From Gammaproteobacteria bacterium (lineage in GTDB: Bacteria > Pseudomonadota > Gammaproteobacteria > GCF-002020875), in the NCBI GenBank assembly GCA_013349825.1, contig DUYW01000007.1, positions 1 to 41,918 on the forward strand: DNA of 41,918 nt, read 5' to 3'. Positions 2,009 through 37,300 of the stretch are shown here, in pieces. The notes beneath the pieces were generated by a model. It saw only the letters and a list, made by a program, of their open reading frames with translations. It did no database searches and was not told the DNA's origin. How positions within the stretch are numbered: position 1 is the first letter of the stretch; each line of letters starts with the position of its first letter. A program made the position numbers and the translations under genes.

Positions 2009-2023
2009 GCAGCTATCCAATTG

Positions 2024-4852: not shown

Positions 4853-4919
4853 CTTTGGTATTACAATTATTCTCAGAGGGAAATGTGTTTTTGCAGTATT
4901 TTGACTATTGTAATAGGAA

Positions 4920-10883: not shown

Positions 10884-11807
10884 TTATGATCTCTGGTACG
10901 TTTCGGTAATTCGATAAATATTCCTCAATTCATCATGAGAACTGTACTGGATAACCACTTTACCTTTCCCCCCGGCCCCCTCCTTAATAGAGACATTCGC
11001 CCCCAGTAACGCCGCAAAAGCCTCTTCTAGCGCCTTCAAGTCTGAAGGTAACTCCCTTGGTCGAGACGGTTCTTTCGGTGGTAACTGACATTTACGCACC
11101 AGCTTCTCCGTCTCTCGGACCGACATCCCTTTAAATACAACCTCTTTAGCTGCATCAATCTGCTCTTTTCCGTCTAACCCCAATAGTGTTCGTGCATGAC
11201 CCATATCCAGCTCACGACGCTGCACCATCATGCCCACCTCAGCATTTAAGTTGAGCAATCTCAGTTGGTTTGTAACAGCACTACGAGACCGCCCGATCAC
11301 TTGTGCGGTCTGCTGTTGAGTCAGACCAAATTCTTTGGTCAGTCGTTGTAACGCAACCGCTTCTTCGATCGGATTAAGGCTCTCTCGTTGGAGATTTTCG
11401 ATGAGAGCTATCGCCATCGCATCCAGATCACTTGCTTCACGAATGATCGCAGGAATCTCGCTGAAACCTGCAAGCTTTGCTGCACGCCAACGTCGTTCAC
11501 CGGCAATAATTTCATAACGATCACCACCTACACGGCGCACAACCAGCGGCTGAATTACACCTTGCTGACGAATAGATTCAGACAGCTCCTCTAGCGCCTC
11601 TTGATTAAACTCTTCTCTTGGTTGATATCGACCACGCTTCAGGTGATCAATCAGCACATAGCTAAAGAGCTGTTGACTCTCCCGACTCACCGGACGCTCA
11701 TCAGGCTGCTTATCAGCTGCTTGTTCTCTACCACCAGAGAGTGGAACTTCAGATGCATTGACTACCCCAAGCAATCCATCCAACCCCTTGTTTTTATTTT
11801 TTGTCAT
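10884..11807 (-). CDS. parB: Chromosome-partitioning protein ParB (Spo0J type), no parA adjacent
   Basis: The protein has 307 residues. The N-terminus 'KGLDGLLG' corresponds to the ParA-interacting 'RGLDALLG' motif of chromosomal ParB. The nuclease-like CTP-binding domain carries 'LIDHLKRGRYQPR' and the ParB box 'GERRWRAAKLAG'. A central helix-turn-helix ('LTQQQTAQVIGRSRSAVTNQLRLL') should recognise parS, and the C-terminal part forms the dimerisation domain. ParB spreads along DNA as a CTP-dependent clamp and normally works with ParA. Here the upstream neighbour is a small hydrogenase-linked gene and no parA is present, nor did I see a parS-like TGTTTCACGTGAAACA. The start ATG follows a GAGGA-like site. 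It may be the main ParB in a rearranged locus or a second copy. Confidence 0.93.
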   Translation of the reverse strand: MTKNKNKGLDGLLGVVNASEVPLSGGREQAADKQPDERPVSRESQQLFSYVLIDHLKRGRYQPREEFNQEALEELSESIRQQGVIQPLVVRRVGGDRYEIIAGERRWRAAKLAGFSEIPAIIREASDLDAMAIALIENLQRESLNPIEEAVALQRLTKEFGLTQQQTAQVIGRSRSAVTNQLRLLNLNAEVGMMVQRRELDMGHARTLLGLDGKEQIDAAKEVVFKGMSVRETEKLVRKCQLPPKEPSRPRELPSDLKALEEAFAALLGANVSIKEGAGGKGKVVIQYSSHDELRNIYRITETYQRS

Positions 11808-12254: not shown

Positions 12255-13985
12255 CTAACCCGTAACCTGAATTTGAACCAACTCTTCACCATCCGGATCG
12301 GTCACATGTACCGCACAAGCGATACAGGGATCGAAGCTATGGATAGTACGCAATATCTCCAATGGCTGCTTGGGGTCATGCATGGTATGTCGATCCTCCA
12401 GTGCGGCCTCATAGGGACCCGCCTGCCCCTCGGCATCTCTGGGGCCGGCATTCCAGGTGCTGGGAACGACTGCCTGATAGTTATCAATCTTCTGGTCCTT
12501 GATCACAATCCAGTGTGAGAGTGCCCCACGCGGCGCCTCAGTAAAGCCAACACCCTTGGCCTCGCTGGGCCAATCGGCAGGATCCCACAGCTTCTGATTA
12601 TGGGTAGCGAGATCTCCCGCTTTGATATTGGCCACCAGTGACCCATACCAATCCATCATATTATCTGCAAAGATCTTGGTCTCCAAGGTACGGGCTGCGG
12701 TACGACCAAGAGTAGAGAACATCGCCTCTAACGGTGCGTCCAGTGTCTTCAGTGCATAGTTGGCCAACTCTACGGTCTGCTCATGCCCCTTGGCATACAT
12801 TACAAGTACACGAGCCAAAGGCCCCACCTCCATCGCATGCCCTTTCCAACGAGGTGACTTGAGCCAAGAGTAAGATTTGTCTACATCAAGGTGCTCATAC
12901 GGTGGTTGAGGCCCACTGTAGTTGAGATTAGTCTCACCTTCCCATGGATGCAGCCCCTCTTTTTTGCCACCGCTGTAGTCATACCAGGAGTGGGCAACAT
13001 ACTCACGAATCTGACTGGAATCATTCAAGTCAAAGTCATGGATGGTCGAGAGGTCACGATTCATGATAATGCCGGGAGGAACCAGGAAGCTGTCGACATC
13101 GTTATTACCTTTTGCAGGAAAGTCACCCATCACCATGAAGTTGCCAACTCCCTCGCCTTTGGCAAACCAGTCTTTATAGAAACCCGCCACCGCAAGGGTA
13201 TCCGGTACATAAACCTGATCAACGAAGGTCTGCATCTTCTCAATCACACCCTTGATTGTCATCAGACCATCCATATTGAGTGCAGTGTTACCGGTGTCTT
13301 CAGTACTGATCGCAACGGGAGCACCACCCACCAGGAAGTTGGGGTGTGGATTTTTACCACCCAGAATGGCGTGAATCTTCACTACATCACGCTGCCACTC
13401 CAGTGCTTCCAGATAGTGGGCCACGGCCATCAGGTTGGCCTCTGCAGGCAGTTTGTAGGCGGGGTGTCCCCAGTAGGCATTGGAGAAGATTCCCAGTTGC
13501 CCACTCTCTACAAAGCTCTTTACACGTTTCTGAATATCTGAAAAGTAACCGGGAGAGGATTTAGGCCAACTACTGAGTGATTGGGCCAACTCAGAGGTCG
13601 CCTTGGGATCTGCACTCAGTGCAGAGACCACATCAACCCAGTCCAGCGCATGTAGATGATAGAAGTGCATCACATGGTCATGTACATACTGGGCACCAAT
13701 CATCAGGTTACGGATCAGCTGCGCATTGGGTGGAATCTCCCAGTTAAGTGCATCCTCTACGGCACGTACCGAGGCAATGCCGTGGACCAGAGTACAGACA
13801 CCACAGATACGCTGGGTAAAGGCCCAGGCATCTCGCGGGTCCCGCCCCTTGAGAATATTCTCGATACCGCGCACCATCGTTCCTGACGAATAGGCTGCGC
13901 TGATCTTGTCGCCATCCATCTGCGCCTCTATACGCAGGTGGCCCTCGATTCGTGTGATCGGATCTACAACAATGCGTTCGCTCAT
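12255..13985 (-). CDS. hynL: Isp-type (group 1e) [NiFe] hydrogenase large subunit
   Basis: This is the 576-residue catalytic subunit of a membrane-bound uptake hydrogenase. It starts MSERIVVDPITRIEGHLRIE, carries L1 RICGVCTLVH (Cys 61 and 64) and L2 DPCIACAVH (552-560), and ends with a 16-residue tail beginning VTDPDG that is cut off during maturation, probably by the HupD protease encoded at 18024-18497. The conserved 'GGKNPHPNFLVGG' and 'EAPRGALSHWIVI' blocks are present. The gene is separated from hynS by isp1, isp2 and a 151-residue gene, as in Thiocapsa and Allochromatium hynS-isp1-isp2-hynL operons. It has no signal peptide and would be co-exported with HynS through the Tat system. Confidence 0.95.
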   Translation of the reverse strand: MSERIVVDPITRIEGHLRIEAQMDGDKISAAYSSGTMVRGIENILKGRDPRDAWAFTQRICGVCTLVHGIASVRAVEDALNWEIPPNAQLIRNLMIGAQYVHDHVMHFYHLHALDWVDVVSALSADPKATSELAQSLSSWPKSSPGYFSDIQKRVKSFVESGQLGIFSNAYWGHPAYKLPAEANLMAVAHYLEALEWQRDVVKIHAILGGKNPHPNFLVGGAPVAISTEDTGNTALNMDGLMTIKGVIEKMQTFVDQVYVPDTLAVAGFYKDWFAKGEGVGNFMVMGDFPAKGNNDVDSFLVPPGIIMNRDLSTIHDFDLNDSSQIREYVAHSWYDYSGGKKEGLHPWEGETNLNYSGPQPPYEHLDVDKSYSWLKSPRWKGHAMEVGPLARVLVMYAKGHEQTVELANYALKTLDAPLEAMFSTLGRTAARTLETKIFADNMMDWYGSLVANIKAGDLATHNQKLWDPADWPSEAKGVGFTEAPRGALSHWIVIKDQKIDNYQAVVPSTWNAGPRDAEGQAGPYEAALEDRHTMHDPKQPLEILRTIHSFDPCIACAVHVTDPDGEELVQIQVTG

Positions 13986-13995
13986 GGGGAACTCC

Positions 13996-14451
13996 TCATG
14001 GATTGTTAACTTTCTCTAAATAATCATTCAATAGTTGGTACTGCGCTCCGGTCTCCAGATCGTGTGTATCTTCATCCGATTCTGAGGCGAGACAGGTACG
14101 CGCCATCCGACACTGCATCGCCGCCTTCCAGGCTGGATTCTTTCCAGCAGTACGTATTTGTGGTTCAACAATTGCCTCGACACCACGTGCCACAAAATAG
14201 CCCGCCTGGTCGTTCCAGTCCCCCTCGGTGCCACAACGAGTATGTGCCTCCAGACTGGCGCGCTTTGCTATTTTAAAGGCACTCTCCAAATCTCCCTCGC
14301 TAGTCGCTGCCTCAACCACCTGTTGCAGACGTGCATCCTCGCTTAAAGAGAGTACATTTGTTACAAAACGGGCACCAACATAGCGTTGCTGCTCCAGACT
14401 CAGCGCTTCCAGCGCCTGGCGGAATTCCATATCACTGCTGATGGTGTTCAT
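13996..14451 (-). CDS. Unrecognised 151-residue protein inside the Isp hydrogenase operon
   Basis: The protein is soluble, mostly helical and mildly acidic, with no signal peptide or membrane segment. The central part reads 'AKRASLEAHTRCGTEGDWNDQ' followed by 'AGYFVARGVEA'. A Cys pair in the 'MQCRMARTC' segment plus the Cys in 'TRCGTEGDW' gives three cysteines. Its ATG overlaps the isp2 stop by four bases, and hynL begins ten bases after its stop, so it is translated together with the hydrogenase subunits. Position and coupling suggest an assembly chaperone, a subunit-specific maturation factor or a small structural subunit of the Isp complex. I do not recognise the family, and the function is inferred only from context. 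Confidence 0.75.
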   Translation of the reverse strand: MNTISSDMEFRQALEALSLEQQRYVGARFVTNVLSLSEDARLQQVVEAATSEGDLESAFKIAKRASLEAHTRCGTEGDWNDQAGYFVARGVEAIVEPQIRTAGKNPAWKAAMQCRMARTCLASESDEDTHDLETGAQYQLLNDYLEKVNNP

Positions 14452-15722
14452 GATACTGACTCCTCTTCCACCAGATGTTCTGCAACCATTTCAGTCAAAC
14501 CAACAACCGGGATATCCATACCGTTATGCTCTAGCCCCTCTTCTAAGGTCAAACGGCAATTGGCACAGGCTGTAACCAGTGTATCTACCTTCAACGCATC
14601 CAGTTGTGATTTTTTGCGGTTGAATGCAGTTAACTTGATCTCTTCAGCACGCTCATTGGCGCTAACACCACCGCCTCCACTACAGCACCAGTTCATTGCA
14701 CCCGCATCACTCATCTCAACAAAGTTGCTTGCAATCTGGTTCAGCAGACGACGGGGTTCTTCAACAATTCCCCCTTTACGAGCGATCTGGCAAGGATCGT
14801 GATAGGTCAAACGGGACTCTTCCATCCCTTCTGTACGAATCAGGCCTGCCTTGGTAAACTCATCCAGCACCTCCAGAATGTGCTTCACCTCAAATTTGTA
14901 GGGGCGACCAATCAGGTTTGGTCCTTCCCATCTCACGGCAGTATAGGCATGTCCACACTCAGGGCTGATCACTGTTTTGACGCCCAACTCTTCGGCTGCA
15001 TCAACAATGCGCGACACAATCACTTTGGCCAGATCTGAGACACCAATCTGAATCCCACTGTTGGTCGCCTCAAATGCTGTGGAAGCGATGGTCCAGGTTT
15101 TACCCGCCTGTTTCATAATGCGGGCAATTGCCTCCAGATATTCTGGAAAATTCATAATCTCCATTGAAGAGAGTAGCACCATATATTCTGCCCCCTTCTC
15201 ATCCAATGTCACCTTGAGGCCGGTATCCTCCTCCAAATGACGGAGCTGCGCCTTCACTGCTGGTAGTTTGACCCCCATCGGGCTGCCAATCTCTACCGCT
15301 CGCTGCGTTGCTCCGATCAGATCCGGTGGTGCATAACCGGCTGCAGCAAAACCTTCTCGAATTTTACGTACCATGCCGGAAATATCATTTCCCACCGGGC
15401 AGACCACTGAACAACGCCCACAGAGGGAGCAACCATCATAGACCATGGTCTCCCACTTTTTGAAGGTCTCTTCATCAACCGGCTTGGTTAAACCCAATGC
15501 CGATTTCAGTTTGCCCAGCATGGTATATTCCTGCTCCCAGATGCGACGCATCGGTTCCACCTTGTTGATCGGTGTATATTTTGGATCACCGGACTCTGTA
15601 TAAAAGAGGCATGCCTCTGCACAGAGACCACAGTGAACACAGGAGCTAAAGAAGCTGGCAACCGGTGCATCAATCTGCGCCTTGATGAAGTCAATTCCTT
15701 TCTTAATTGATGGTTTGCTCAT
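14448..15722 (-). CDS. isp2: Isp2, HdrD-like iron-sulfur subunit of the Isp hydrogenase
   Basis: The protein has 424 residues. Two ferredoxin-type motifs lie in the N-terminal third, 'CVHCGLCAEACLFY' and 'CSLCGRCSVVCPVGND', each followed by sequence typical of heterodisulfide-reductase-like proteins. The C-terminal half has CCG-domain features: 'SPECGHAYTAVRWEG', then 'HDPCQIARKGG', 'NWCCSGGGG' and 'CANC'. This resembles HdrD and the DsrK subunit. In Isp hydrogenases it is thought to pass electrons between the periplasmic-type hydrogenase heterodimer, cytochrome b-like Isp1 and a thiol or disulfide partner. Start and stop overlap isp1 and the 151-residue gene by four bases each. Confidence 0.92.
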   Translation of the reverse strand: MSKPSIKKGIDFIKAQIDAPVASFFSSCVHCGLCAEACLFYTESGDPKYTPINKVEPMRRIWEQEYTMLGKLKSALGLTKPVDEETFKKWETMVYDGCSLCGRCSVVCPVGNDISGMVRKIREGFAAAGYAPPDLIGATQRAVEIGSPMGVKLPAVKAQLRHLEEDTGLKVTLDEKGAEYMVLLSSMEIMNFPEYLEAIARIMKQAGKTWTIASTAFEATNSGIQIGVSDLAKVIVSRIVDAAEELGVKTVISPECGHAYTAVRWEGPNLIGRPYKFEVKHILEVLDEFTKAGLIRTEGMEESRLTYHDPCQIARKGGIVEEPRRLLNQIASNFVEMSDAGAMNWCCSGGGGVSANERAEEIKLTAFNRKKSQLDALKVDTLVTACANCRLTLEEGLEHNGMDIPVVGLTEMVAEHLVEEESVS

Positions 15723-16366
15723 GATTCCACTCCTCGGCGTCCTGCGAGATACCCTTGATACCAGCGCGCCAGTACAAAGCTGAACATATGGGTCAATTTG
15801 GTAAACGGGGCCAGCACCAACAGCAACTCTACACTAAGAATGTGATAAGCCAACATCTGCGTATAGTCGAGCATCAGGTGATGGTAGGCCATATAACCGG
15901 TAATCAGTGGCAGCAGTGTAATCAACCATGCTAGATAGTCTCCTACGGTAGAGATATGCTGCAACACAGGGCTGTAGAGCCGCATCAACAGTGCCGCAAA
16001 TAGTGAAAGAATGGTGATCACCGTAACCGCATCAATCACACTGGAGGAGAGTCCGGCCAAATCCAGCCCAAGTAACTCAATATGTGGACGATAGAAAAAA
16101 ATCACCACAAACAGTCCAATATGGAGAATATAGCCATTCAAAATTCGTAGAGGCTCACGAGCGAATACTGTTTTGCGTGGCAGGGACCGGCTAAAGATAG
16201 TACGTAATCCTCCACTCAACCCGCTGTCACGTGCTGCAGAAAGGTCACTCTTTCGTCCCAGACTGATGATTTCAAACAGCCGTAACAGCATACCAAACAC
16301 AAAGATTGCCAACGCCATATTGAAGGCGGGCCCGCGTGCCCAGATCAGTAGTTCATTGACTTCCAT
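15719..16366 (-). CDS. isp1: Isp1, cytochrome b-like membrane subunit
   Basis: The protein has 215 residues and about five transmembrane helices. These start with 'GPAFNMALAIFVFGMLLRLFEII', then 'LRILNGYILHIGLFVVIFFY', 'VIDAVTVITILSLFAALLMRLY', 'YLAWLITLLPLITGYMAYHH' and 'MLAYHILSVELLLVLAPFTKLTHMF', each within normal helix length. Histidines in the second, fourth and fifth helices are suitable heme ligands. It belongs to the NarI/DsrM-like family and should move electrons from HynSL to the quinone pool or through Isp2. The ATG lies two bases after the hynS stop, and the end overlaps isp2 by four bases. Confidence 0.92.
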   Translation of the reverse strand: MEVNELLIWARGPAFNMALAIFVFGMLLRLFEIISLGRKSDLSAARDSGLSGGLRTIFSRSLPRKTVFAREPLRILNGYILHIGLFVVIFFYRPHIELLGLDLAGLSSSVIDAVTVITILSLFAALLMRLYSPVLQHISTVGDYLAWLITLLPLITGYMAYHHLMLDYTQMLAYHILSVELLLVLAPFTKLTHMFSFVLARWYQGYLAGRRGVES

Positions 16367-16368
16367 GA

Positions 16369-17487
16369 TCAGGACTCCTTCTTCAGATCTTCAACCGTCA
16401 TGGTTTCACGCCCCTCCACTGCAGCGCTTTTGTTACTTCGGTTCAGTGCCGCAGCCGCTACACCTACACCGACACCAACAGCAGCTGCCTTGAGTACAGT
16501 TTCACCAACACGCCCTTGGGGTACGGATAGCGCCTCATAGAAGCTGCCGGCATCCCAAAAATTGGGTTCGGAGCAACCCAGACAGGGGTGACCCGACTCA
16601 ATGGGAAAGCTGGTACCCTCATTCCATTTCATGGTTGCGCAGGCATTATGGGTGGTGGGTCCTTTACAGCCCAATTCATAGAGACACCACCCTTTACGCG
16701 CCCCCTCATCATCAAAGGCCTTGGCAAACAAGCCCTGATCATAGAAGGTTCTGCGATAGCAACGATCATGGATGCTATCACCATAGAAGGCCTTGGGTCG
16801 TCCCAACTCATCCATATCCGGTAACCGGGCAAAGGTGAGGAAGTGGGCAATGGCGCTGGTCATTACCAGGCCAATCGGAGGACATCCGGGAATATTCATC
16901 ACCGGTTTATCTTTCACAATATCGGTCACCGCTACAGCCCCGGTAGGGTTGGGCTTAGCCATCGGCAGTCCGCCATACGCCGCACAGGTACCCACCGAAA
17001 TCACAGCTGCTGCCCCTGCCGCAGCCTCTTCCAGCATACTGAGGTTGGTTCTACCTGCAATGGTTGAGTAGACCCCTCCATCTTTGGTTGGGATTGAACC
17101 ATCTACAATCAATAGATACTTTCCATAAGCATCCTTCATCGCCATATCGCGCGCTTCCTCTGCCTGATGACCCGCAGCAACTTGCAAGGTATGGTGATAA
17201 TCCAGTGAAATAAAATCAAAAATCAGATTTTCAATGGTTGGGGTATGTGAACGGGTGATCGATTCAGTACAGCCGGTACACTCTTGAAAGGAGAGCCAGA
17301 TTACCGTTGGCCGTTTCGCCGCAGATAAGGCTTCAGCCATCACATCCGCTGAACCTGTAGGCAGTGCCAGTGCGGCTGCCATAGAGCTACAGAACTTCAG
17401 AAAACCGCGCCTGCTCACACCATGTTGTTCCAGATGATCGACAAAGGTTTCACTGATCTGGCTATTATTGCGTTTCAATTGACTCAT
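16369..17487 (-). CDS. hynS: Isp-type [NiFe] hydrogenase small subunit, Tat-exported
   Basis: The protein has 372 residues. A twin-arginine signal 'SRRGFLKF' (Arg 26 and 27) followed by a hydrophobic region ends near 'ADVMAEA', directing the folded heterodimer across the membrane. The mature part starts the proximal-cluster motif 'FQECTGCTESITRS' (Cys 70 and 73) and later has 'GTCAAYGG', 'NIPGCPP', the medial/distal cluster cysteines in 'DRCYRRTFYDQG', 'GWCLYELGCKGP' and 'GHPCLGCSEPNFWD'. A C-terminal hydrophobic segment near residues 330-350 likely anchors it in the membrane. Ribosome-binding site GGAG lies seven bases before the ATG. A promoter and paired palindromes occupy the upstream 130 bases. 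Confidence 0.94.
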   Translation of the reverse strand: MSQLKRNNSQISETFVDHLEQHGVSRRGFLKFCSSMAAALALPTGSADVMAEALSAAKRPTVIWLSFQECTGCTESITRSHTPTIENLIFDFISLDYHHTLQVAAGHQAEEARDMAMKDAYGKYLLIVDGSIPTKDGGVYSTIAGRTNLSMLEEAAAGAAAVISVGTCAAYGGLPMAKPNPTGAVAVTDIVKDKPVMNIPGCPPIGLVMTSAIAHFLTFARLPDMDELGRPKAFYGDSIHDRCYRRTFYDQGLFAKAFDDEGARKGWCLYELGCKGPTTHNACATMKWNEGTSFPIESGHPCLGCSEPNFWDAGSFYEALSVPQGRVGETVLKAAAVGVGVGVAAAALNRSNKSAAVEGRETMTVEDLKKES

Positions 17488-17542: not shown

Positions 17543-17589
17543 ATATGTATATGCAATACACACTATTTGTCAACCCAATATATACATAT
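17543..17589. promoter_or_regulatory. Inverted repeat flanking the hynS promoter, plus nested TGTAT-N5-ATACA
   Basis: Ten-base arms ATATGTATAT (17543-17552) and ATATACATAT (17580-17589) are exact reverse complements separated by 27 bases. The arms lie on the -10 element and just upstream of -35. Nested within the left side is a smaller palindrome TGTAT-ATGCA-ATACA (17546-17560). A related palindrome with the same five-base spacer occurs at 25624-25640 between the sensor kinase and hypE. AT-rich sequence makes chance palindromes easier, so this is a candidate operator only. Confidence 0.4.
17546..17573 (-). promoter_or_regulatory. Predicted sigma-70 promoter of the hynS-isp operon
   Basis: On the minus strand, a perfect TTGACA (17573-17568) is followed after 16 bases by TATACA (17551-17546), four of six positions of TATAAT. 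Transcription would start near 17538, giving a leader of about 50 bases before the hynS ATG at 17487. The surrounding region is much richer in A and T than the genes on either side. No sigma-54 GG/GC pair, common for some hydrogenase operons, was seen. Confidence 0.5.
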
Positions 17590-20040: not shown

Positions 20041-21201
20041 ATGAACCTGGAGGGACGCATTGCAATCACTTTATCCCCAACGGAGGATAATGCCCATCGC
20101 GTCGCCATTAACTCTACCCGTCCGGTACATGCTTGTCAGATGTTTCATGGAAAATCCATCGACGAAACACTCAAAGCGCTTCCGTTGCTTTTCAGTATCT
20201 GTGGCACAGCCCAGGCTGCTGCTGCAGTACGAGCCTGTGAACAGGCACTTGATCACTCCCCCTCAATTAAGAGTGAAAAGATTCGACAACAGTTGGTTGC
20301 ACTGGAGACCATTCGCGAGCACCTCTGGAGAACCTTGCTGGGTTGGGGGGCTTCACTTGGAGAGCCTCTATCCGAACAGACCATGGCAAGGGTGATGACA
20401 CTGCAACAGCAGATGCGAAAGGCGTTAACAGGGGATACCTCTCCGTTCCAACTCCAACCTCAACTCTCACCGTCTGATTCCTTAATGGTCTCTACCCTCC
20501 AGCAACAGCTTATCGAGATTGTAGAACACTCATTACTGGGGATCTCTATCGCTCAGTGGGAATCCATAACCAGCCTCGATGCTTTTTGGGGCTGGAGCAA
20601 GCAGCAAAAAACCGTTGCAACTCGCTTTATCCAACAGCTTGAACATGCCGGCTGGAATCATCTCGGAGAGTGTGATAGTTCACTATTACCCACTCTGGAG
20701 ACTGAGTTAATCCATCAACAACTCGATCAAGCTGATTTTATTGCTCAGCCACTCTGGAAGGCTATCCCCAGAGAGACCACCCCATTCAGCCGTACCCAGA
20801 GCCCACTGTTAACAACACTGTACACCCATTATGGAAACGGACTATTAACCCGTTCTGTCGCTCGTCTTACAGAACTGTTTCAGCAGCTAACACAGCTGCT
20901 CAACCCTGCCTCACAATCCTCCATAGCCACTTATCAGCCCTCTGTCGGAATCGGACTCAGTACGGCGGCCCGAGGACAGTTACTGCATCGTGTTGCGGTC
21001 GAAAACAGCCAAATTATCCGTTACCAGATTCTTGCGCCAACTGAATGGAATTTTCACCCCCAAGGGGTAGTTACACAAGCATTGCAGCAACTGGAGCCAG
21101 ACACTGCAACAGTAAAGCAGCAAGCCTCTCTGATCATCCATGCAATTGACCCCTGTGTTGGTTATGATTTAACCCTCAACCCAACTGGAACCGAATGCTG
21201 A
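20041..21201 (+). CDS. hupK: HupK-like hydrogenase assembly protein (degenerate large-subunit paralogue)
   Basis: The protein has 386 residues, starting one base after the hypB stop. It resembles a [NiFe] large subunit with the catalytic motifs worn down: 'FSICGTAQAAAA' (Cys 54) in place of RICGxCxxxH, and 'DPCVGYDL' (Cys 372) in place of DPCxxCxxH. The 'RYQILAPTEWNFHPQG' block before the end is typical of HupK and large subunits. With one Cys of each pair retained, it may hold the iron centre temporarily as a scaffold during assembly, as proposed for HupK in Rhizobium. The stop overlaps the following hypC as TGATG. Identification is good; the scaffold role is from family knowledge. Confidence 0.8.
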   Translation: MNLEGRIAITLSPTEDNAHRVAINSTRPVHACQMFHGKSIDETLKALPLLFSICGTAQAAAAVRACEQALDHSPSIKSEKIRQQLVALETIREHLWRTLLGWGASLGEPLSEQTMARVMTLQQQMRKALTGDTSPFQLQPQLSPSDSLMVSTLQQQLIEIVEHSLLGISIAQWESITSLDAFWGWSKQQKTVATRFIQQLEHAGWNHLGECDSSLLPTLETELIHQQLDQADFIAQPLWKAIPRETTPFSRTQSPLLTTLYTHYGNGLLTRSVARLTELFQQLTQLLNPASQSSIATYQPSVGIGLSTAARGQLLHRVAVENSQIIRYQILAPTEWNFHPQGVVTQALQQLEPDTATVKQQASLIIHAIDPCVGYDLTLNPTGTEC

Positions 21202-21443
21202 TGTGCCTCGCTATCCCGACTCAAATCATCACCGTCTCTGCCGATCAACAGGGTGCAACAGTCTCAATTGATGGTATCCAAAAAGAGATCTCACTGGCAC
21301 TGGTTGAGGAGATTGCTGTAGGAGATTATGTTCTGTTGCATGTCGGTTATGCCCTCAGCAAAGTAGATACCGTTGAAGCTGAAAAGACACTGGCGCTGTT
21401 CGCAGAGATGAAGGGGCTCGAAACAATGGAACCTCTGAAATGA
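21201..21443 (+). CDS. hypC: Hydrogenase assembly chaperone HypC (second copy)
   Basis: The protein has 80 residues. It begins MCLAIPTQI, with the essential Cys2, and continues with 'VEEIAVGDYVLLHVGYALSKVD'. I chose the ATG at 21201 because it places the Cys at position 2; an ATG two codons upstream would add two residues and destroy that position. It overlaps hupK (TGATG) and hypD (four bases). Compared with the first hypC it is closer to the canonical HypC partner of HypD ('MCLAIP'). It may serve the group 3b enzyme or act as the general HypCD partner. Confidence 0.93.
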   Translation: MCLAIPTQIITVSADQQGATVSIDGIQKEISLALVEEIAVGDYVLLHVGYALSKVDTVEAEKTLALFAEMKGLETMEPLK

Positions 21444-22585
21444 GATACATTGATGAGTTCCGCTCCGGGGAGCTGGCGCAGAAGCTTGCCAGAAAAATCC
21501 GGCATGCAACTGATCCGAATCGTCAATATAATCTGATGGAGTTTTGTGGAGGCCATACCCACGCTATCTTCCGCTATGGCGTGCCCGATCTGTTGCCAAA
21601 GAATGTCCACTTTGTTCATGGCCCCGGCTGTCCGGTCTGTGTACTCCCAACAGCACGTATTGATCAGGCGCTCTATTTACTGGAGCAGGAGGATGTGATT
21701 CTCTGTAGCTATGGTGATCTATTGCGGGTACCTGCCAGCCACAAAAAGAGTCTACTCAAAGCAAAGGCACAAGGTTCCGATGTGCGTATGGTCTACTCGA
21801 CACAAGATGCTCTAAAAATTGCAAGGGAAAACCCAGAGCGTGAAGTGGTCTTCTTTGCCATCGGTTTTGAGACCACTACGCCGCCCACTGCCGTGGCCAT
21901 CAAACAGGCCGCAACGGAAGGGTTATCAAACTTCAGCGTATTCTGTAACCATGTCCTCACCCCCGCAGCCATTCAAAATATTCTGGAATCTCCAGAGGTT
22001 CGTGAGATCGGCACGGTCTCTATTGATGGCTTCTTTGGCCCCTCTCATGTCAGCGCAATTATTGGCAGCCGCCCCTATGAGTTCTTTGCTGAGGAGTTTC
22101 AACGCCCTGTTGTGATTGCCGGTTTTGAACCGCTCGATGTGATGCAGTCTACGCTGATGTTAATACAACAGCTCAATGAGGGACGTTATGAGGTGGAAAA
22201 CGAGTACCACCGTGTAGTCAGCCGTGATGGCAACCTGAAGGCTCAGGCACTGGTGGCCGAACTGTTTGAACTGCGCCCTCTGTTTGAGTGGCGTGGCTTG
22301 GGGCAGGTTCCCTATAGTGCATTACGGATCAAACAGCCTTTTAATGAATTTGATACGGAACAGCGTTTCAACATCCCGGAGATTGAATCCAAAGAGATCA
22401 AAGGGTGTGAATGCCCGGCTATTTTACGTGGTGCAAAACGCCCTCGTGACTGCAAACTGTTTGGTACTGTCTGTACCCCAGAAAACCCGATGGGTTCCTG
22501 TATGGTCTCTTCTGAAGGAGCCTGCGCCGCCTACTGGAGTTATGGTCGGTTCCGCAATGTCTCCCCGGAGAGCGATTTAGAGTGA
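21440..22585 (+). CDS. hypD: HypD, Fe(CN)2CO assembly scaffold
   Basis: The protein has 381 residues. Conserved motifs are 'NLMEFCGGHTHAIFRYG', 'HGPGCPVCVLP' and 'FAIGFETTTP', with the C-terminal cluster region 'CECPAILRG', 'CKLFGTVCTPENP' and 'GSCMVSSEGACAAYW', which together ligate the [4Fe-4S] cluster. HypD and HypC hold the iron while cyanide (from HypEF) and CO are added. The start overlaps hypC by four bases. The reading direction ends here: 57 bases later a sensor kinase on the opposite strand converges on it, interrupting the usual hypD-hypE adjacency. Confidence 0.96.
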   Translation: MRYIDEFRSGELAQKLARKIRHATDPNRQYNLMEFCGGHTHAIFRYGVPDLLPKNVHFVHGPGCPVCVLPTARIDQALYLLEQEDVILCSYGDLLRVPASHKKSLLKAKAQGSDVRMVYSTQDALKIARENPEREVVFFAIGFETTTPPTAVAIKQAATEGLSNFSVFCNHVLTPAAIQNILESPEVREIGTVSIDGFFGPSHVSAIIGSRPYEFFAEEFQRPVVIAGFEPLDVMQSTLMLIQQLNEGRYEVENEYHRVVSRDGNLKAQALVAELFELRPLFEWRGLGQVPYSALRIKQPFNEFDTEQRFNIPEIESKEIKGCECPAILRGAKRPRDCKLFGTVCTPENPMGSCMVSSEGACAAYWSYGRFRNVSPESDLE

Positions 22586-22641: not shown

Positions 22642-25584
22642 CTATGTTGTTCGAGTACTAACCTCTTCAGCATCCTCTTTAACCAGCAGAGGAAGAGTGA
22701 CAATCATCCTCATCCCTTGATGGGCCCCTTCACTCTCAGCAGTAACCGTACCACCCAAGCTGCGTACCAATTTTGCCGCCGAATTGAGACCAAAACCACT
22801 GCCCGCCTCTTTGGTGGTATAACCCACACGAAACAGTTTATGTGCCGCTTCTGGATCATGTCCACAGCCATTATCTGCGATCATCATCTCAAAATGGGCA
22901 TCACCGACAGGAACTACCCGCAATAAGACACGCCCTTCGAAGGTCTCTTTGCCACTTCTCTCTTCACTAATTGCTTCAAGTGCATTTTTCAAAAAGTTAA
23001 GCAGTAGCTGCATCAATGGGTTTCGAGGCAGGAAGAGTAAGTTAACCACTGGGTCCAGTTCAGTCTCAAACTGAACTTCCGCTTTCTCGAAGCGATCCTC
23101 AATCAAACTATAGGTTTCATTAACCATCGTAACCAACTCAAACTCGGTCGACTGAATCACCGGACGAGCCGCATTGCGGTGCAGTGCAATAATATCCCCA
23201 ACATGTACAATCCCGGTCTCAATCTTGTCGAGATCACCTGACTCATCAAATGAATGGCTCATTTGACCTACAAACTTGGCCATTGCCTCCATCACCTGGG
23301 CAGATTTCTCCAGCTCCCCGGTTAACGCGGCTGAATCTCCTTCAGACTGCAGTGCTGTGCGTATCTGCTCTGCAGACTTCTGCTGCATTTTTTGCAGTTT
23401 TTCCAACTGTTTAATTTTGCGACGTGTACGGATTACATTCCCACTCATCCCGGTAATCACATTACCAATATTATGGAGCACAGACCCGCTCATCTCAGCC
23501 ACACCACTCTGAAAATCGGCAAGTTGCTCCTGTTTTTCTGCCCAAATTCGGTCTCGAACATCATGCAATACCAATACAGATCCTACAATCTCACTACCCT
23601 GCTCTTGCTGCTGGCGTAGCATTGCACCACTGATCTGAACTGGCATCGTCTCCCCTTTCTGCTGTATTAATCTACGTTGCACATAGAGCATTCCTTCATC
23701 CAGAAAAAGTCGTCCAAACGGGGTGGTGGCAAATATATCCCAAAGTTGTGTATCAGATGGATCATGGACCACAGCCAGTACTTTGGTCTCACCCTCAACC
23801 GTTAATGGGAACAGTCCGATTTCAACAGAGAGCAGGTCTCCACTCTGGGTTTTGAGTGAGATTCTATCCCCCTGCTTCATCCCTCTCGGTTTTCCCCTTT
23901 CAATAACTGCCTGCATCATTGCATCGTGATTCCCACCCATCTCAAGAGGCAACAAGGGAGACAGATTTCCTCCAACCAACTGCTCAGCAGACCACTCTGA
24001 CAATAGCTCTAATGCCCCATTGACGCTCTCAACAACCCCGGATTGATCAATAATTAATGTACCAACAGCTGCCTCTATGCAAAATTCATGCAGTAAAATC
24101 TGCTGAGTACCAACCAGCTCTTGCAGACGTTCCTGAACGATATAGTTCAAACTATCCGTCCGATCTCGTAGTACCTCTTCTTTGGCGAACAGCTGATTAA
24201 ATGGTTTCCCAACCAGTTTTTCTCGGCGCTCTCCAGTCAAATTCTCCAACATCGGGTTGACCATCTGAATCACACCACTGCGATCCAGAACCAATACCCC
24301 CTCCTGCATCGACTCTAAAATAGAGACGCTCTGTGCTTTCTCACGCATCAAATCCTGCTGAACCTTCTCAATGGTCTTGGTCATCTGGTTAAAACTTTTA
24401 GAGAGCATGCCTAACTCATCACCACTCTGGTCTTCAAGTCGATAACTCAAGTCACCACGTGTTAATGCCTGCGCACCGCGATAGAGCAGAGAGATTCTGT
24501 TCAACACAATACTTCGCATCTCCCAGCTGATAATAGCTAACAGGAATAGTGCAAAGAGAAAGAGGCTGATATAGAGCAGCCTCTGTAGATCCTCCAATGG
24601 TGCTAATGCCACCTCTTCCTCATAGACAATATGAATTAAATGGCCTTGAGTAAATGACTGAGGTTTTTGAGTAACGTGATGAGAATCCTCTTGTGAAGAG
24701 AGATACCGTACTGCGGGTTCATCCCCCCAAAGTGAAAGACGCCATTCAATGGTATCTTCGTGCTCATGATCACTCCCCTTACCCGCCTCATAAGGTGGCC
24801 AGGCAGAGATCACCTGCCCCTGATCTGCATCCAGGTATTCTATTTCATCCAACCCACTATCCTGAGGAAGATTATGGGCAATACTTTCCAACACCCGATC
24901 TGTCACCTGCTGCCAGCGTTCAACAACGACCAATTCTCCGAGCAGCTCCCCCTCTACTTTAACAGGAGCCACAAACCAGCGCATACGACGTTTTTTCTCC
25001 TCTTTGCTCTCCCCCAATAAGTCAATCCAGGGGTCAAAATCAGGCGGTGAAACTCGAACCGCTGCAACACCTGACATCTGATCAGGAATAGCCTTTTGAA
25101 CTTGTACATTAAAATAGGATTTATTCAGAGCCACAGACTCTAACGTTTTATACAACGGGTGGTTATTTACATTGCTACCAATCATCTCCTTATGCTTCGA
25201 ATCATCCTCTCCATGACCCTGATTGCAGATCACAACCACATTTCCATTACGATCAACCAGAAAGGCCGATAAAAGCTGTGGATAGACGTTTACCAGATCA
25301 TCCAAAACAGCCTGTCCATCTGTCAGCAAAACCTGATCCTGCAACAATTTAGCCACCCTGGGGTCTCGTGATGCAAAATCAACAATATGGCGATTTTCAT
25401 CGACACGTTCTTGCAATTGACTACGGATAAACGAGAGTGTTGCCACCATCTGATACTCGATCTCTAATTTGAGTTCGCTACGCATCTCTTTTTCAAGCAG
25501 GAATGCGGCGATAGCTGTCAGAAGCAGAATTGAGCCACCTACGATAATGAGTGTTCGTGGAATCAGTTTCATTTTTGACAACAT
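22642..25584 (-). CDS. Membrane sensor histidine kinase with HAMP and two PAS domains
   Basis: The protein has about 980 residues from the ATG at 25584; MKLIPRTL at 25572 and an upstream TTG are alternatives, and no strong ribosome-binding site decides between them. Transmembrane helices at ~10-30 and ~337-355 bracket a large periplasmic sensor region of about 305 residues, probably of the double-Cache type. A HAMP linker (~357-405) follows, then PAS at ~418-470 and ~498-550. The dimerisation helix has 'SGSVLHNIGNVITG' with His 704 as the likely phosphorylated residue, a Leu-His-Asn-x-Gly-Asn type rather than classical HisKA. The ATPase domain has N box 'LLNFLKNALEAI', 'DNGCGHD' and 'GSGFGLNSAAK'. 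It lies between hypD and hypE on the opposite strand, and no response regulator is in the window. A role in sensing H2, redox state or a sulfur compound is possible but unproven. Confidence 0.88.
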   Translation of the reverse strand: MLSKMKLIPRTLIIVGGSILLLTAIAAFLLEKEMRSELKLEIEYQMVATLSFIRSQLQERVDENRHIVDFASRDPRVAKLLQDQVLLTDGQAVLDDLVNVYPQLLSAFLVDRNGNVVVICNQGHGEDDSKHKEMIGSNVNNHPLYKTLESVALNKSYFNVQVQKAIPDQMSGVAAVRVSPPDFDPWIDLLGESKEEKKRRMRWFVAPVKVEGELLGELVVVERWQQVTDRVLESIAHNLPQDSGLDEIEYLDADQGQVISAWPPYEAGKGSDHEHEDTIEWRLSLWGDEPAVRYLSSQEDSHHVTQKPQSFTQGHLIHIVYEEEVALAPLEDLQRLLYISLFLFALFLLAIISWEMRSIVLNRISLLYRGAQALTRGDLSYRLEDQSGDELGMLSKSFNQMTKTIEKVQQDLMREKAQSVSILESMQEGVLVLDRSGVIQMVNPMLENLTGERREKLVGKPFNQLFAKEEVLRDRTDSLNYIVQERLQELVGTQQILLHEFCIEAAVGTLIIDQSGVVESVNGALELLSEWSAEQLVGGNLSPLLPLEMGGNHDAMMQAVIERGKPRGMKQGDRISLKTQSGDLLSVEIGLFPLTVEGETKVLAVVHDPSDTQLWDIFATTPFGRLFLDEGMLYVQRRLIQQKGETMPVQISGAMLRQQQEQGSEIVGSVLVLHDVRDRIWAEKQEQLADFQSGVAEMSGSVLHNIGNVITGMSGNVIRTRRKIKQLEKLQKMQQKSAEQIRTALQSEGDSAALTGELEKSAQVMEAMAKFVGQMSHSFDESGDLDKIETGIVHVGDIIALHRNAARPVIQSTEFELVTMVNETYSLIEDRFEKAEVQFETELDPVVNLLFLPRNPLMQLLLNFLKNALEAISEERSGKETFEGRVLLRVVPVGDAHFEMMIADNGCGHDPEAAHKLFRVGYTTKEAGSGFGLNSAAKLVRSLGGTVTAESEGAHQGMRMIVTLPLLVKEDAEEVSTRTT

Positions 25585-25623
25585 AGTACAATTCAACCAT
25601 AAAGACCTTGCCAAGACAATTCC

Positions 25624-25640
25624 ATGTATCCCAAATACAT
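25624..25640. promoter_or_regulatory. Palindrome ATGTAT-N5-ATACAT between kinase gene and hypE
   Basis: Six-base arms are exact reverse complements around CCCAA. The site is in the divergent 118-base region, 40 bases from the kinase start and 62 bases from the hypE start. The core TGTAT-N5-ATACA recurs at the hynS promoter (17546-17560), so both may bind one regulator. No strong promoter could be placed beside it. Confidence 0.35.
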
Positions 25641-25702: not shown

Positions 25703-26752
25703 ATGACTTCTCACCCTAAACACTACAGCTCTAAATTGGATCTGAAAAACGGCACTGTTGATATGACCCACGGCAGTGGTGGCCGGGCCATGGCTCAACT
25801 GATTGATGAGCTTTTTGTCCACTACTTTGACAACGACCTATTACGACAGGCAAATGATCAGGCTACTTTTTCGATTCCAGCCGGACGTATGTCGATCAGT
25901 ACCGATGGGCATGTAATCTCTCCACTCTTTTTCCCCGGTGGTGACATCGGTTCACTGTCGGTCCACGGCACACTCAATGATGTTGCCATGTCGGGTGCCA
26001 AACCACTCTACCTGGCTGCCGGTTTTATTCTGGAAGAGGGGTTTCCTCTCTCTGAGCTGGAACAGATTATTCAATCAATGGGAAGAGCCTCTGCCAAAGC
26101 GGGGGTCCCTGTGGTAACTGGAGATACCAAGGTGGTGGAGCGAGGTAGTGGGGATGGTATCTTTATTACAACCACTGCGGTCGGTATTGTTCCTGAAGGG
26201 GTCAACATTGCTGGAGATCGCGCACAACCGGGAGATAAGATACTGGTCAGCGGCACTTTAGGAGATCACGGGGTTGCTATCCTCTCCAGCCGGGAAAACC
26301 TTGAGTTTGAGACCACCATTGAGTCTGACTCTGCCGCACTGCATGGCCTGATTGCCGACCTGGTCGCCGCCGTACCTGATATCCACTGTCTACGTGACCC
26401 AACCCGTGGTGGCCTTGCAACCACACTCAACGAACTGGCCAAACAGTCCGATGTTGGCATGCGCATTATTGAAAAGAAGCTGCCGATTCAGCCAGCCGTC
26501 AATGCCGCCTGTGAACTGCTAGGATTAGACCCTCTCTATGTCGCCAATGAGGGAAAATTGATCTGTATCGCTGCGGCTGAACATGCCGACAAACTACTGG
26601 CCACTATGCAACAGCACCCTAATGGAAAGGATGCGGCCATTATTGGAGAGGTCATTGAGGACAAGATGGGATTTGTACAGCTAGAGACCAGCTTTGGTGG
26701 AAACCGGGTGATCGATTGGTTAGTCGGAGAGCAATTGCCAAGAATATGTTAA
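25703..26752 (+). CDS. hypE: HypE, thiocyanate-forming dehydratase for CN ligand synthesis
   Basis: The protein has 349 residues. Motifs are 'VDMTHGSGGRAM', 'GDTKVVERGSGDGIFI', 'LRDPTRGGLATTLNELA' and the invariant C-terminal 'PRIC', whose Cys receives the carbamoyl group from HypF and is dehydrated to thiocyanate using ATP. The protein belongs to the PurM/SelD-like ATP-binding family. It starts a second plus-strand unit, hypE-hypX-hypF, separated from hypD by the kinase gene. No strong ribosome-binding motif precedes the ATG. Confidence 0.96.
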   Translation: MTSHPKHYSSKLDLKNGTVDMTHGSGGRAMAQLIDELFVHYFDNDLLRQANDQATFSIPAGRMSISTDGHVISPLFFPGGDIGSLSVHGTLNDVAMSGAKPLYLAAGFILEEGFPLSELEQIIQSMGRASAKAGVPVVTGDTKVVERGSGDGIFITTTAVGIVPEGVNIAGDRAQPGDKILVSGTLGDHGVAILSSRENLEFETTIESDSAALHGLIADLVAAVPDIHCLRDPTRGGLATTLNELAKQSDVGMRIIEKKLPIQPAVNAACELLGLDPLYVANEGKLICIAAAEHADKLLATMQQHPNGKDAAIIGEVIEDKMGFVQLETSFGGNRVIDWLVGEQLPRIC

Positions 26753-26762
26753 GGAATCCTGA

Positions 26763-28481
26763 TTGAAAATCCTGCTTCTGGCACACAGCTTTAATGGGCT
26801 GACGCAACGGCTCTTTGTCGACCTGCGTGAGGCTGGCTATCAGGTCTCCGTTGAACTGGATATTCATGATGAGATCACTGCCGAGGCAGTTACGCTGTTC
26901 CAGCCCGACCTGCTAATCGCCCCATTCCTCAAGCGCAGAATTCCAGAGACGATCTGGAGACAACTCCCCTGCCTCATCCTTCACCCCGGCCCTCCAGGTG
27001 ACCGTGGGCCCTCAGCACTGGATTGGGCACTGCTCAAGCAGGAAAAATTATGGGGCGTCACACTGCTTGAGGCTAATGCAACACTGGATGGCGGTGATAT
27101 CTGGGGGTTTGAAACCTTTCCGATGCGCAACACAACCAAGGGAGTGCTCTACCACCAAGAGGTGACTGATGCAGCCTCAAGAATAACCCTGAATGTAGTC
27201 CGTCAATTTGAAACCGGCTCTATTTCACCTCATCCTCAGAACGCTCTTCCAGATGCAGAACGATGGGGAGAGCAATTGTTGATGAGCCAGCAGGATCGTA
27301 AAATTGATTGGCAACAGGATAGCCAAGAGAGCGTCCTGCGCAAGATTAACAGTGCAGACGGCTCTCCCGGTCTGCTGGATTCTCTCTTTGGGCATTCGCT
27401 CTACCTCTATGATGCGCAACCGGAAAAGCAACTCAGTGGCTCTCCCGGTGAGATTATCGCCCGTTCTGGTCCGGCGCTCTGTCGTGCCACAGCAGATGGT
27501 AAAGGTGTGTGGATCGGTCATTTGAGAGACCGGCAGAGCACCCACCCTTTTAAGCTACCTGCTACTCAACTACTTGCCGATGAGCTGAACAAACACCCGT
27601 CCCTTGAAGAGGTCCACTATTCACCCGCAATGCAGAGTGGTTACCGAGAGATTGTCTATGAAGAGGAGAACAGTGTCGGCCTGATCCACTTCAATTTCTA
27701 TAATGGTGCCATGAGCACTGCCCGTTGCCAGCAACTACAACAGACCCTGCAACAAGCCAAACAGCGATCAACCCGCGCCATCTTGCTTCTGGGCGGTGAA
27801 AACTATTGGTCTAACGGGATGTGTCTCAACCAAATTGAGGCCGCCCAGAGTCCTGCAGATGCCTCCTGGGAGAATATCAATGCGATGGATGATCTGGCCC
27901 TGGAGATTCTCCAGAGTGATCACCATCTAATCATCAGTGCAGTGCAGGGCAATGCCGCTGCTGGAGGGCTCTTTCTCGCCCGTACAGCCGATCTCATCTG
28001 GGCCAGAAAAGGGGTCATCCTCAACCCTCACTACAAGGATATGGGAAACCTTTATGGTTCTGAGTATTGGAGTTATCTACTCCCCAAACATGCCGGTATC
28101 GAGCATGCCCAGCAGATCTCTCAGGCACGCCTGCCGATGGGAACTGAGGAAGCACACCGCTTGGGACTGGTTGATCAACAGTTTGACTGCCCGCATGACT
28201 CTTTCTTGAATACCTGCAAAAGTGAGGTGGATAAACTGATCCATCAACCCGATTTTGACCAGCAACTGAAACAGAAGCGCCAACAACGCCGAACAGACGA
28301 GCAGATAAGACCGCTCGCCCGTTATCGTGAGGCAGAGCTGGAAAAGATGCGACTGAACTTCTATGGTTTTGACCCCAGCTACCATATTGCACGCTACAAT
28401 TTCGTTCATAAGGTTGCAAAATCGAGAACGCCCACCACCATTGCATTTCACCGTAGACCACAGAGAACCGCTCAATCTTGA
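26763..28481 (+). CDS. hypX: HypX/HoxX, CO-ligand synthesis protein
   Basis: The protein has 572 residues. The N-terminal half resembles formyltransferases: 'CLILHPGPPGDRGPSALDWAL' in parts (HPG-x-x-G-x-RG) for formyl-tetrahydrofolate binding, then 'LLEANATLDGGDIW'. The C-terminal half is enoyl-CoA hydratase-like ('GGENYWSNGMCLNQIE', 'AVQGNAAAGGLFLARTADLIW'). HypX converts the formyl group of formyl-tetrahydrofolate to CO through formyl-CoA, supplying the active-site CO when oxygen is present. Start is a TTG at 26763, supported by an AAGGA motif eight bases upstream and by the conserved KILLLAHSFN beginning. It overlaps hypF by four bases. Confidence 0.92.
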   Translation: MKILLLAHSFNGLTQRLFVDLREAGYQVSVELDIHDEITAEAVTLFQPDLLIAPFLKRRIPETIWRQLPCLILHPGPPGDRGPSALDWALLKQEKLWGVTLLEANATLDGGDIWGFETFPMRNTTKGVLYHQEVTDAASRITLNVVRQFETGSISPHPQNALPDAERWGEQLLMSQQDRKIDWQQDSQESVLRKINSADGSPGLLDSLFGHSLYLYDAQPEKQLSGSPGEIIARSGPALCRATADGKGVWIGHLRDRQSTHPFKLPATQLLADELNKHPSLEEVHYSPAMQSGYREIVYEEENSVGLIHFNFYNGAMSTARCQQLQQTLQQAKQRSTRAILLLGGENYWSNGMCLNQIEAAQSPADASWENINAMDDLALEILQSDHHLIISAVQGNAAAGGLFLARTADLIWARKGVILNPHYKDMGNLYGSEYWSYLLPKHAGIEHAQQISQARLPMGTEEAHRLGLVDQQFDCPHDSFLNTCKSEVDKLIHQPDFDQQLKQKRQQRRTDEQIRPLARYREAELEKMRLNFYGFDPSYHIARYNFVHKVAKSRTPTTIAFHRRPQRTAQS

Positions 28482-34379: not shown

Positions 34380-37300
34380 TTATTTGATCACGTCAACATC
34401 TATAGGGTTGATAGAGCCAAGATCACTCAATGAATCACTCAATGGAGAGTAGTCTGAATAGTCTGTGACAGGTGCATCCTCTTCACCCTCTTCAGCAACC
34501 ACCACTTCAGTCTCAGTGGCATCATCTGCTTCGACGACTTCATTCAGGTATTGAGTAATCTCATCATCAGCAACCTCATCAGGTAACAGGTCTCCAATAT
34601 CCAGTGACTGATCGGTTTCATCCAATAGTCCACCCTCAAAGCTCTCACTCTCAGAAGCGAATAGTGCCTCATCGTCTGCAAACTCACCATAGAGAATATC
34701 TTCTTCAGACTCATCCTCAAACAGATCTGCAAAAGATTCCTCTTCGAGACTCGCGGAGGACTCTTCACCCTCAAACAGAGGTTCATCTCCGAAGTCACCC
34801 AGAAGAATTTCACTGCTATCACCATCAGCAAAGAGTGTCTCATTCTGATCAATAACCAACTCTGCTTCATCGGAGTAGCCATCCCCTGCAAGAATCTCTT
34901 CATCAGATAGAGCACCCAAAATATCAGACTCTTCTGAGACTCGCTGTTCAAAAGCGGACTCATCCAATCCCGCATACTCCTCAAGCATATCCTGAACATG
35001 TACCATTGCGGCCTCTTCAGAGATCACCTCTTCACCAACCTGCCCAATTAACTGTTCAGTAATTTCCTCTGTGGCATCTGCAAGGTGAATATCATTACTG
35101 GTATCACCATCAGTAAAGGCTGCACGCATCTCTTCAGTAATGCGAATACCATCGTAGGCATCACCATTCTCATCCAGAGACTGTAAGAATACCGCCATAT
35201 TCTCTACATACTCATCATTCATATTGGTACGTAGCACACCGGCCAGGTCTTGCAGGAAGACCAAGTCATCACCCATCTGAGCTGTATCTACCGTGCCGAC
35301 AACCACATCACCAATCGAGAAGGTGACAACATCACCACTGCGATAGAGGAAAGAGCCATTTTCATCGGTAAGGCCGCTAACACCAGAAGAGGTTGTATAC
35401 TCTAGCCCTTCAATAATGCCATCCACAATCGTTGCACTCTGTACAGAGTCTTCAGTGTCACCATTGGAAGCCTCCGTTGCTGTCACCGTTGAGGAGATTG
35501 AGCTCTTTTCACTACTGGAAAGCGAATGGTTAGAGACCAGTGTAAATGTTGCCGCCTCACCCGAATTGACAGAGACCGTATAACTACCATCACCATTTGC
35601 AGTGAGGGCATCACCATTACCATCCTTCAACGAGACCGTTCCAGAAGGGAGACCACTAATAACCATATCAGACAATGATTCACTACCATCTGTATCACTC
35701 AAGGTAGCGGTTACTGTTACAGGATATTCATAGGTTGTAACCAAATCATCTTCAAATTGAATCACCTCAACATTCTTGACACTGGTGGTATGACCGTCTT
35801 TGGTATAGGTCGTCCAGTCACCATCAGAGCCAACCGAGTAGTCCGAACTGGAACCTTCCATAATCAAGGTATCCGTTCCTCCCTCACCATTGATTTCATC
35901 CCAACCCGAACCAACTTGTAGGCGGTCATCACCCCCACCTGCTTTGATCTCTGCCCAACCTGCATCACCATCACCGACAAGCAGATGATCTGAACCCTCC
36001 TTGAGGTCAATATAATCCCAATCATTACCCAATGAGATTACATCAACATCATCCCCACCTTTGACTTCAGCCCAGCCAGTGTCACCATCTCCTGCAGTCA
36101 ACTGGTTAGCACCACTCCCCATATTGATGTAATCCCAATCATCCCCAGCAGTGACAACATCATCACCATCACCAGCCTTAATCTCAGCCCAGCCACTATC
36201 ACCATCTCCAACTGTTAATTGATCATCTCCATCTTTGAGGTCAATCTTGCTCCAATCATCGCCAACAGAGAGAACATCGTCACCCTCACCCGCATTGATT
36301 TCACTCCAGTTTGAATCTGCATCTCCTGCCGACAATTGATCATCACCATTTTTCAGTTTGATCTCATCCCAATCATTACCCGCAATAACAACATCATCAT
36401 TATTACTGGTCTGAACCCGGTCCCAACCACTTTGGCCATCCCCATAATCCGTTGCACCACTTAAATCAGGACCACTTGCTGTAGTTGGGGTATTAGGAGA
36501 GTTACCTGATGGTGTATTAACGGTCTCTCCACCAATTGTCATCGAGACCACCGGGGCATCAGCAACAGCAGTAATCGTAATTGAAGCAGTCGCTGGTGTG
36601 GCATCCGTTGCCCCACTATCATCTGTCGCAGCATATTGGAAACTTGTTGCTCCACTCCAGTTACTGTCCGGGTCAAAATAGAGAGTCGCTGCAGAACCAG
36701 CAGCTGCAATGACTGCACCCGAGGTCACTGCCTGAGTCAATGCGCTGTCACTGTAAAGCGTTCCATTCGATGGCAAGCTACTGACTGTAAAGCTTGCTAC
36801 AGAACCATCTGAATCACTTCCTGAGAGCGTAATGGCAACATAGGTGGCATCCTCATTTCCGGTTGAAGAAACATCATCTGTCGTTGCAACAATATTCGTA
36901 ATATCTACAGTGACTGTTTCTGACGCAACTGCTGTATCACTGTTTGAACTTTCTGTGGCCGTTGCAGTCACAGTCAGATCAAAATCAGCTGAAACCGTGT
37001 CAGGAACTGTCATTGTCAGTCCACTCAGGTCACTACTTGTAACTGTATAGCTACCGTTGCCGTTGTCTGTACCAGCACTTAATGCAACCCCCGTTGGCAG
37101 ACCGGAAACAACAATAGTGAGACTCTCACTACCATCAATATCCACCAGTGCTGTGGTAATGGTTAATGGATAGACGGTATCGGTACCAGACCCCTCCACA
37201 CTGCCCACAGCATCAAGATATGGCGTACTCCCTGTCGTGAAATCAGAACCTGAAATAGAGATAACATTGAGGTCGTTACTTCCAATCTGGTCAGAGATCA

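Follow-up and report, generated by a model that had tools for sequence, protein, structure and literature searches.

A gene for a membrane sensor kinase lies inside the hydrogenase maturation gene set of this gammaproteobacterium, which raises the question of whether the encoded protein controls hydrogenase synthesis or has an unrelated task and came by its neighbours through inheritance. An earlier reading, made from the sequence alone, had suggested a link to hydrogenase control, on the basis of a palindrome found both in the divergent region before hypE and at hynS.

The hydrogenase neighbourhood and the kinase gene

The window, meaning the whole stretch of DNA analyzed, is the 41.9-kb contig C7, one of 274 in a draft genome of 2.87 Mb (G000), and it holds two [NiFe] hydrogenase operons, one sulfhydrogenase-like (4920-9400) and one Hyb-like (12255-17487, including HmcE/F-like subunits), whose hydrogenases look catalytic. 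These operons are followed by hypA, hypB, a hydrogenase-large-subunit-like gene, hypC (at about 21201-21439, located by eye), hypD (21440-22585, plus strand; TIGR00075), the kinase gene on the minus strand, hypE (25703-26752, plus strand; TIGR02124), a HypX-like gene and hypF. The TIGR matches of the flanking genes thus bear out the earlier statement that a kinase gene on the opposite strand splits hypD from hypE. The HypX-like gene (26763-28481) encodes a formyl-transferase/enoyl-hydratase fusion and is named from this domain make-up.

The two hydrogenase operons are separated by a gene for a ParB-like protein (10884-11807), and at 34380-41879 the window encodes a protein of 2499 aa whose matches are cadherin-like, pentaxin and RTX-type. 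In addition, DUF4258, Schlafen/AlbA_2 and DrmD-like SNF2 helicase genes (432-5366) adjoin a hydrogenase operon, with the helicase frame overlapping that of a maturation protease on the same strand; the stretch looks like a defence locus or the remnant of one.

The frame of the kinase gene is open on the minus strand from 22642 to 25614, up to a TTG at 25614 that defines a 990-residue numbering, and an ATG at 25584 (MLSKMKLIP), common to the orthologue in genome G003 of the same genus, gives a product of 980 residues (P0001; 22642-25584), classed from its open frame and domain matches as an LHN-type membrane sensor histidine kinase. In the 990-residue numbering, the protein contains a HAMP domain (369-416), two PAS domains (430-480 and 517-621), a sub-threshold dCache_1 match (48-129) and a HATPase_c domain (865-976, E 1.3e-15) whose N, G1 and G2 boxes place it in the kinase superfamily. 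Two hydropathy peaks (12-30 and 336-354 in the 980-residue numbering) predict two membrane helices, so the previous description of a membrane kinase of about 980 residues holds. The ATP-binding motifs are kept in an alignment of LHN kinases (A1), and the ATPase domain looks active from its sequence. A structure prediction of the sensor region from the two orthologues was unusable (pLDDT 36.7), and a profile of this region found no match beyond P0001 itself in 274 genomes of the class, a sample that lies apart from G003. A search of genome contigs for related loci returned 14, all of them weak HAMP/PAS/ATPase relatives of 25-34% identity.

The G000 and G003 kinases are 64% identical, with dN 0.27, a saturated dS of ~2.7 and dN/dS of ~0.1, and this constraint marks the kinase as a working gene in both genomes. 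Apparent purifying selection of this kind shows that the kinase has a function, but not which one. The earlier observation that no response regulator is encoded nearby was also correct, as none of the 128 Response_reg matches in the genome falls on the 41.9-kb contig.

Inheritance and loss of the kinase gene within the genus

The hypD gene is present in all six genomes of the genus, at seven loci in total, and the kinase gene stands between hypD and hypE at two of these (G000 contig C7 and G003 contig C134). At three other loci hypE follows hypD without it, namely on contig C42 of G000, where the two genes overlap, in G001 (a gap of ~285 bp) and in G005 (a gap of ~434 bp), while G002 has an oxidoreductase-like gene after hypD and no hypE within the stretch read. 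The second hypD-hypE pair of G000, on contig C42 (locus L057, 5070-12304), is accompanied by a large-subunit-like gene and a hemerythrin-like ORF, the latter identified by eye; a stray C-terminal piece of hypE is also present, and a hybrid kinase is encoded downstream. In G003, a further kinase ORF, 38% identical over 235 aa, lies beyond hypE.

The closest relative, G004, is the most informative of these genomes. Thirteen of its 15 hyp/hyn-region proteins are 87-97% identical to those of the window (the remaining two are 72% and 79% identical) and its hydrogenase cluster is intact, with no kinase gene between hypD and hypE and no copy elsewhere. On the hypD side of the G004 gap, 47 of 57 nt are identical to the 3' end of the kinase gene, and on the hypE side 61 of 67 nt are identical to its start and upstream DNA; the first eight codons of the kinase are left, after which the frame is lost on entering the 3' remnant. 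Since this gap holds both ends of the gene, the kinase predates the split of G000 and G004 and was deleted later. Judging from these remnants, the hypD-hypE position is ancestral, and a hydrogenase cluster can be retained without the kinase.

The sequence-only reading had asked whether relatives carry the kinase at the same place, and the answer is divided: G003 does, while G004, G001, G005 and the C42 locus of G000 have hypD and hypE without it. That reading had also held that its case would fail if close relatives had an uninterrupted hypDE and kept the kinase elsewhere, with an unrelated regulator of its own. Half of this picture was found, because the closest relative indeed has hypD-hypE without the kinase, but through secondary deletion and with no copy at another site.

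The palindrome TGTAT-N5-ATACA

The window contains two exact copies of this palindrome, as had been reported, and these are the only two in the whole 2.87-Mb genome. One (TGTATCCCAAATACA, 25625-25639) lies in the divergent gap between the kinase gene and hypE, where it adjoins the stretch missing from G004, and the other (17546-17560) lies upstream of hynS, where it overlaps a promoter-like TTGACA-N16-TATACA. With about 0.03 copies expected per window, two are unlikely to arise by chance, but the motif was picked after the fact: when the intergenic DNA was shuffled 300 times, a recurring dyad matching in arm and gap size alone turned up in 3 cases. The reversed-pattern control gave three sites in the whole genome.

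The palindrome was rejected as an operator for shared control because G003 and G004 have it at neither site and G002 lacks it at hynS. Across whole genomes, G004 has one copy, on another contig, and G001, G002, G003 and G005 have none. By reading, the right arm of the hynS copy overlaps the TATACA located 16 nt past TTGACA and is -10-like; G004, G003 and G002 keep TTGACA and TATAxx 14-16 nt apart upstream of hynS, also by reading, without the palindrome. The promoter scan does not list the TTGACA...TATACA sequence at hynS. With the palindrome absent in relatives and one arm -10-like, the hydrogenase link that had been built on it is not supported. In G004, a direct repeat of a ACGAGGTATATCTATA-like unit can be seen by eye upstream of hynS (locus L055, 12190-12365), near the place of the window palindrome.

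A predicted histidine kinase with a variant H-box

The putative phospho-acceptor box of P0001, LHNIGN, was placed by pattern position and conservation at codons 23461-23478 (minus strand), and its histidine is residue 714 of 990, or 704 of 980. P0001 has no match to a Pfam phospho-acceptor family at E<=1, and none of 23 LHN members has one among the 25 families listed, with 15 more standing outside that list. In 54 distinct sequences, a set filtered on H.[IVM]GN, this histidine is present in every one; it falls in the DHp helical hairpin of the structure model and is predicted to be phosphorylated. It is followed by Asn in 53 of the sequences and by His in one, and the Gly and second Asn of the box are invariant by construction of the filter. 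A second histidine, residue 804 in helix 2, is conserved among 45 of the 54 and would lie about level with the box histidine, as estimated from helix length in the predicted model.

HisKA domains carry an acidic residue beside the histidine (HE or HD), and the LHN set does not. The LHN profile nevertheless aligns LHNIGN with the H-box HEIRNP of Thermotoga maritima ThkA (3a0r), with Glu replaced by Asn, at an i-Evalue of 0.15 that is weak when taken alone; ThkA is a classical HisKA kinase that works with an ordinary receiver, TrrA. A model of the DHp and ATPase region (22687-23574, minus strand, the same region used for alignment A1) has pLDDT 78 and pTM 0.53 and shows a DHp-CA fold with helices at 2-76 and 81-136. 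The fold is shared with FixL/YF1, HK853 and ZraS; the best matches are ZraS, HK853 and 4gcz, the last with a Z of 22.1 and an rmsd of 9.2 across 246 residues, and histidine kinases and related kinases dominate among the matches listed by VIA-align and Foldseek. The modelled DHp-CA fold and the ThkA alignment therefore argue that P0001, its variant H-box included, is a histidine kinase whose fold is not new. Compared with FixL/AtoS/ZraS-type PAS kinases, which are of the HPK4-like class, the ATPase domain and the overall DHp-CA fold are predicted to be alike, whereas P0001 has Asn for the H-box Glu and Gly for Arg/Lys, lacks a Pfam HisKA match and has long DHp helices in the model. The earlier description of the histidine region as unlike classical HisKA thus stands as far as Pfam recognition is concerned, but not with regard to the alignment with ThkA and the ordinary kinase fold that is predicted.

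LHN kinases and insert-type receivers

G000 encodes at least 16 LHN kinases (15 in the retrieved stretches plus P0001, one of them with LHHVGN). The alignment and protein searches scored no more than 13 to 15 candidates per genome, so that paralogue numbers drawn from them are lower bounds. Eight of the 16 are fused to, or lie within 50 bp of, a receiver of an insert type. Ordinary receivers (PF00072) have about 45 residues between the acidic pair and the phospho-accepting Asp; by comparison, the insert type spans 70-88 residues in most members, with a motif like DMRMPPGWDGLETA, and keeps the DD, D and K of the receiver core. Another LHN kinase, on contig C65, forms a fusion with an ordinary receiver, and for two more the nearest receiver lies at a distance of 1.1 and 3.9 kb. 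The remaining five are orphans with no receiver near them, including P0001, which has the LHN box but no adjacent or fused insert-type receiver on its contig. As outputs, ten insert-receiver proteins selected from G000 have GGDEF (three, one of them with EAL), HisKA-HATPase (five), PAS (one) or no such domain (one).

Outside the genus, where each genome contributed a single LHN locus, an insert-type receiver was found at 11 of the 14 and at none of 25 control loci (Fisher p 2e-7), the controls being every locus in the range L008-L032, around non-LHN kinase matches. The receiver profile used for this count was built from G000 alone, and a profile that included the tested loci agreed. One of the three LHN loci lacking a receiver lies near a contig start. 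The count leaves out five of 19 non-genus loci (L098-L102) that lack the H[NH][IV]GN motif, among which L098 has insert receivers and L099-L102 do not. At locus L084 of genome G046 (64-2394), a single ORF matches the LHN profile twice, with scores of 112 and 245, and an insert-type receiver comes next.

Within the genus, DNA-pattern counts for G000, G003, G002, G001, G004 and G005 are 12, 22, 14, 4, 0 and 0 for LHN kinases and 18, 32, 22, 3, 0 and 0 for the receivers, so that the two rise and fall together; both reversed controls gave zero, and the two genomes that lack both patterns, G004 and G005, are 98-99% complete. Among 274 genomes of the class, which are not independent of one another, a strict receiver pattern occurs in eight, all within the 33 that have an LHN-profile match. 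A class-wide LHN DNA pattern (58 of 274 genomes) was dropped as a kinase count because it accepts Phe before the His and its reversed control had hits. The open literature, in which few subscription journals are covered, yielded no description of the LHN kinase group or its network, although one may exist.

Possible roles of the kinase

From the domains, motif, position, scar, family pairing and joint absence observed, we infer a signal, partner, phosphotransfer and output as follows. P0001 is probably an orphan input of a lineage-expanded network of LHN kinases and insert receivers, with an inherited hyp neighbourhood. A periplasmic, probably Cache-like domain and the two cytoplasmic PAS domains would set the state of the HAMP and DHp helices, the ATPase domain would phosphorylate His714 (704) in LHNIGN, and the phosphoryl group would pass to at least one receiver of the insert type, in which the insertion follows the acidic pair. 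Such receivers, with their genes at other places in the genome, would drive GGDEF/EAL proteins or hybrid-kinase phosphorelays. Because P0001 has no receiver nearby, its insert-receiver partner is assigned by family only, and the five LHN orphans, together with the ordinary-receiver fusion on C65, mean that orphans may use ordinary receivers. The gene would have come to lie between hypD and hypE before G000, G004 and G003 diverged; purifying selection would have maintained it in G000 and G003, and G004 would have deleted it along with loss of the LHN/insert-receiver network. On this explanation, regulation of hyp is only hypothetical, and the shared position in G003 could reflect a retained functional link with hyp.

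Several alternatives bear on this proposal. The many paralogues, the loss in G004 and the hyp clusters without the kinase would also fit a neutral neighbour: an LHN paralogue that arose by duplication, happened to settle among the hyp genes and serves an unrelated target through ordinary receivers. This is unlikely, as the insert-receiver pairing is family-wide and the G000-G003 constraint speaks for function, though not for which one. We regard it as quite doubtful that the kinase is dedicated to controlling hydrogenase synthesis by way of a distant regulator bound to the shared palindrome: the position kept in G000 and G003, the divergent promoter region common to the kinase gene and hypE and the restriction of the palindrome to the two hydrogenase sites are offset by its absence from both sites in relatives, by the loss of the kinase from G004 with the cluster retained, and by the three other hypD-hypE pairs of the genus that have no kinase. 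A PAS-containing kinase inside a hydrogenase cluster also recalls HoxJ/HupT, soluble PAS kinases that are encoded with an NtrC-type regulator (HoxA/HupR) and work with a regulatory hydrogenase. H2 sensing of this kind is highly improbable for P0001, which has a membrane/HAMP architecture with two hydropathy peaks, a histidine region that is not of the HisKA type and no receiver, hence no NtrC-type regulator, on its contig.

Given that G004 deleted the kinase and kept its hydrogenase genes, the kinase looks unlike a dedicated hydrogenase switch and more like an orphan within a large sensor family that is poorly catalogued. Control of the hydrogenases is disfavoured, and apart from location the link that had been suggested finds no support.

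Implications

G004 is in effect a natural kinase deletion in an almost identical hydrogenase cluster, and so bears on the question of hydrogenase control without an experiment. More tentatively, LHN kinases and insert receivers could form a separately wired two-component subfamily that has its own phospho-acceptor chemistry (Asn in place of the acidic residue, plus the helix-2 His), supplies c-di-GMP enzymes and secondary phosphorelays with input, and is gained or lost as a block, with the hyp-embedded kinase as one orphan input. The pairing of LHN kinases with insert receivers would make it possible to match orphan kinases from many genomes to partner families, and it draws attention to a phospho-acceptor region missed by Pfam in P0001.
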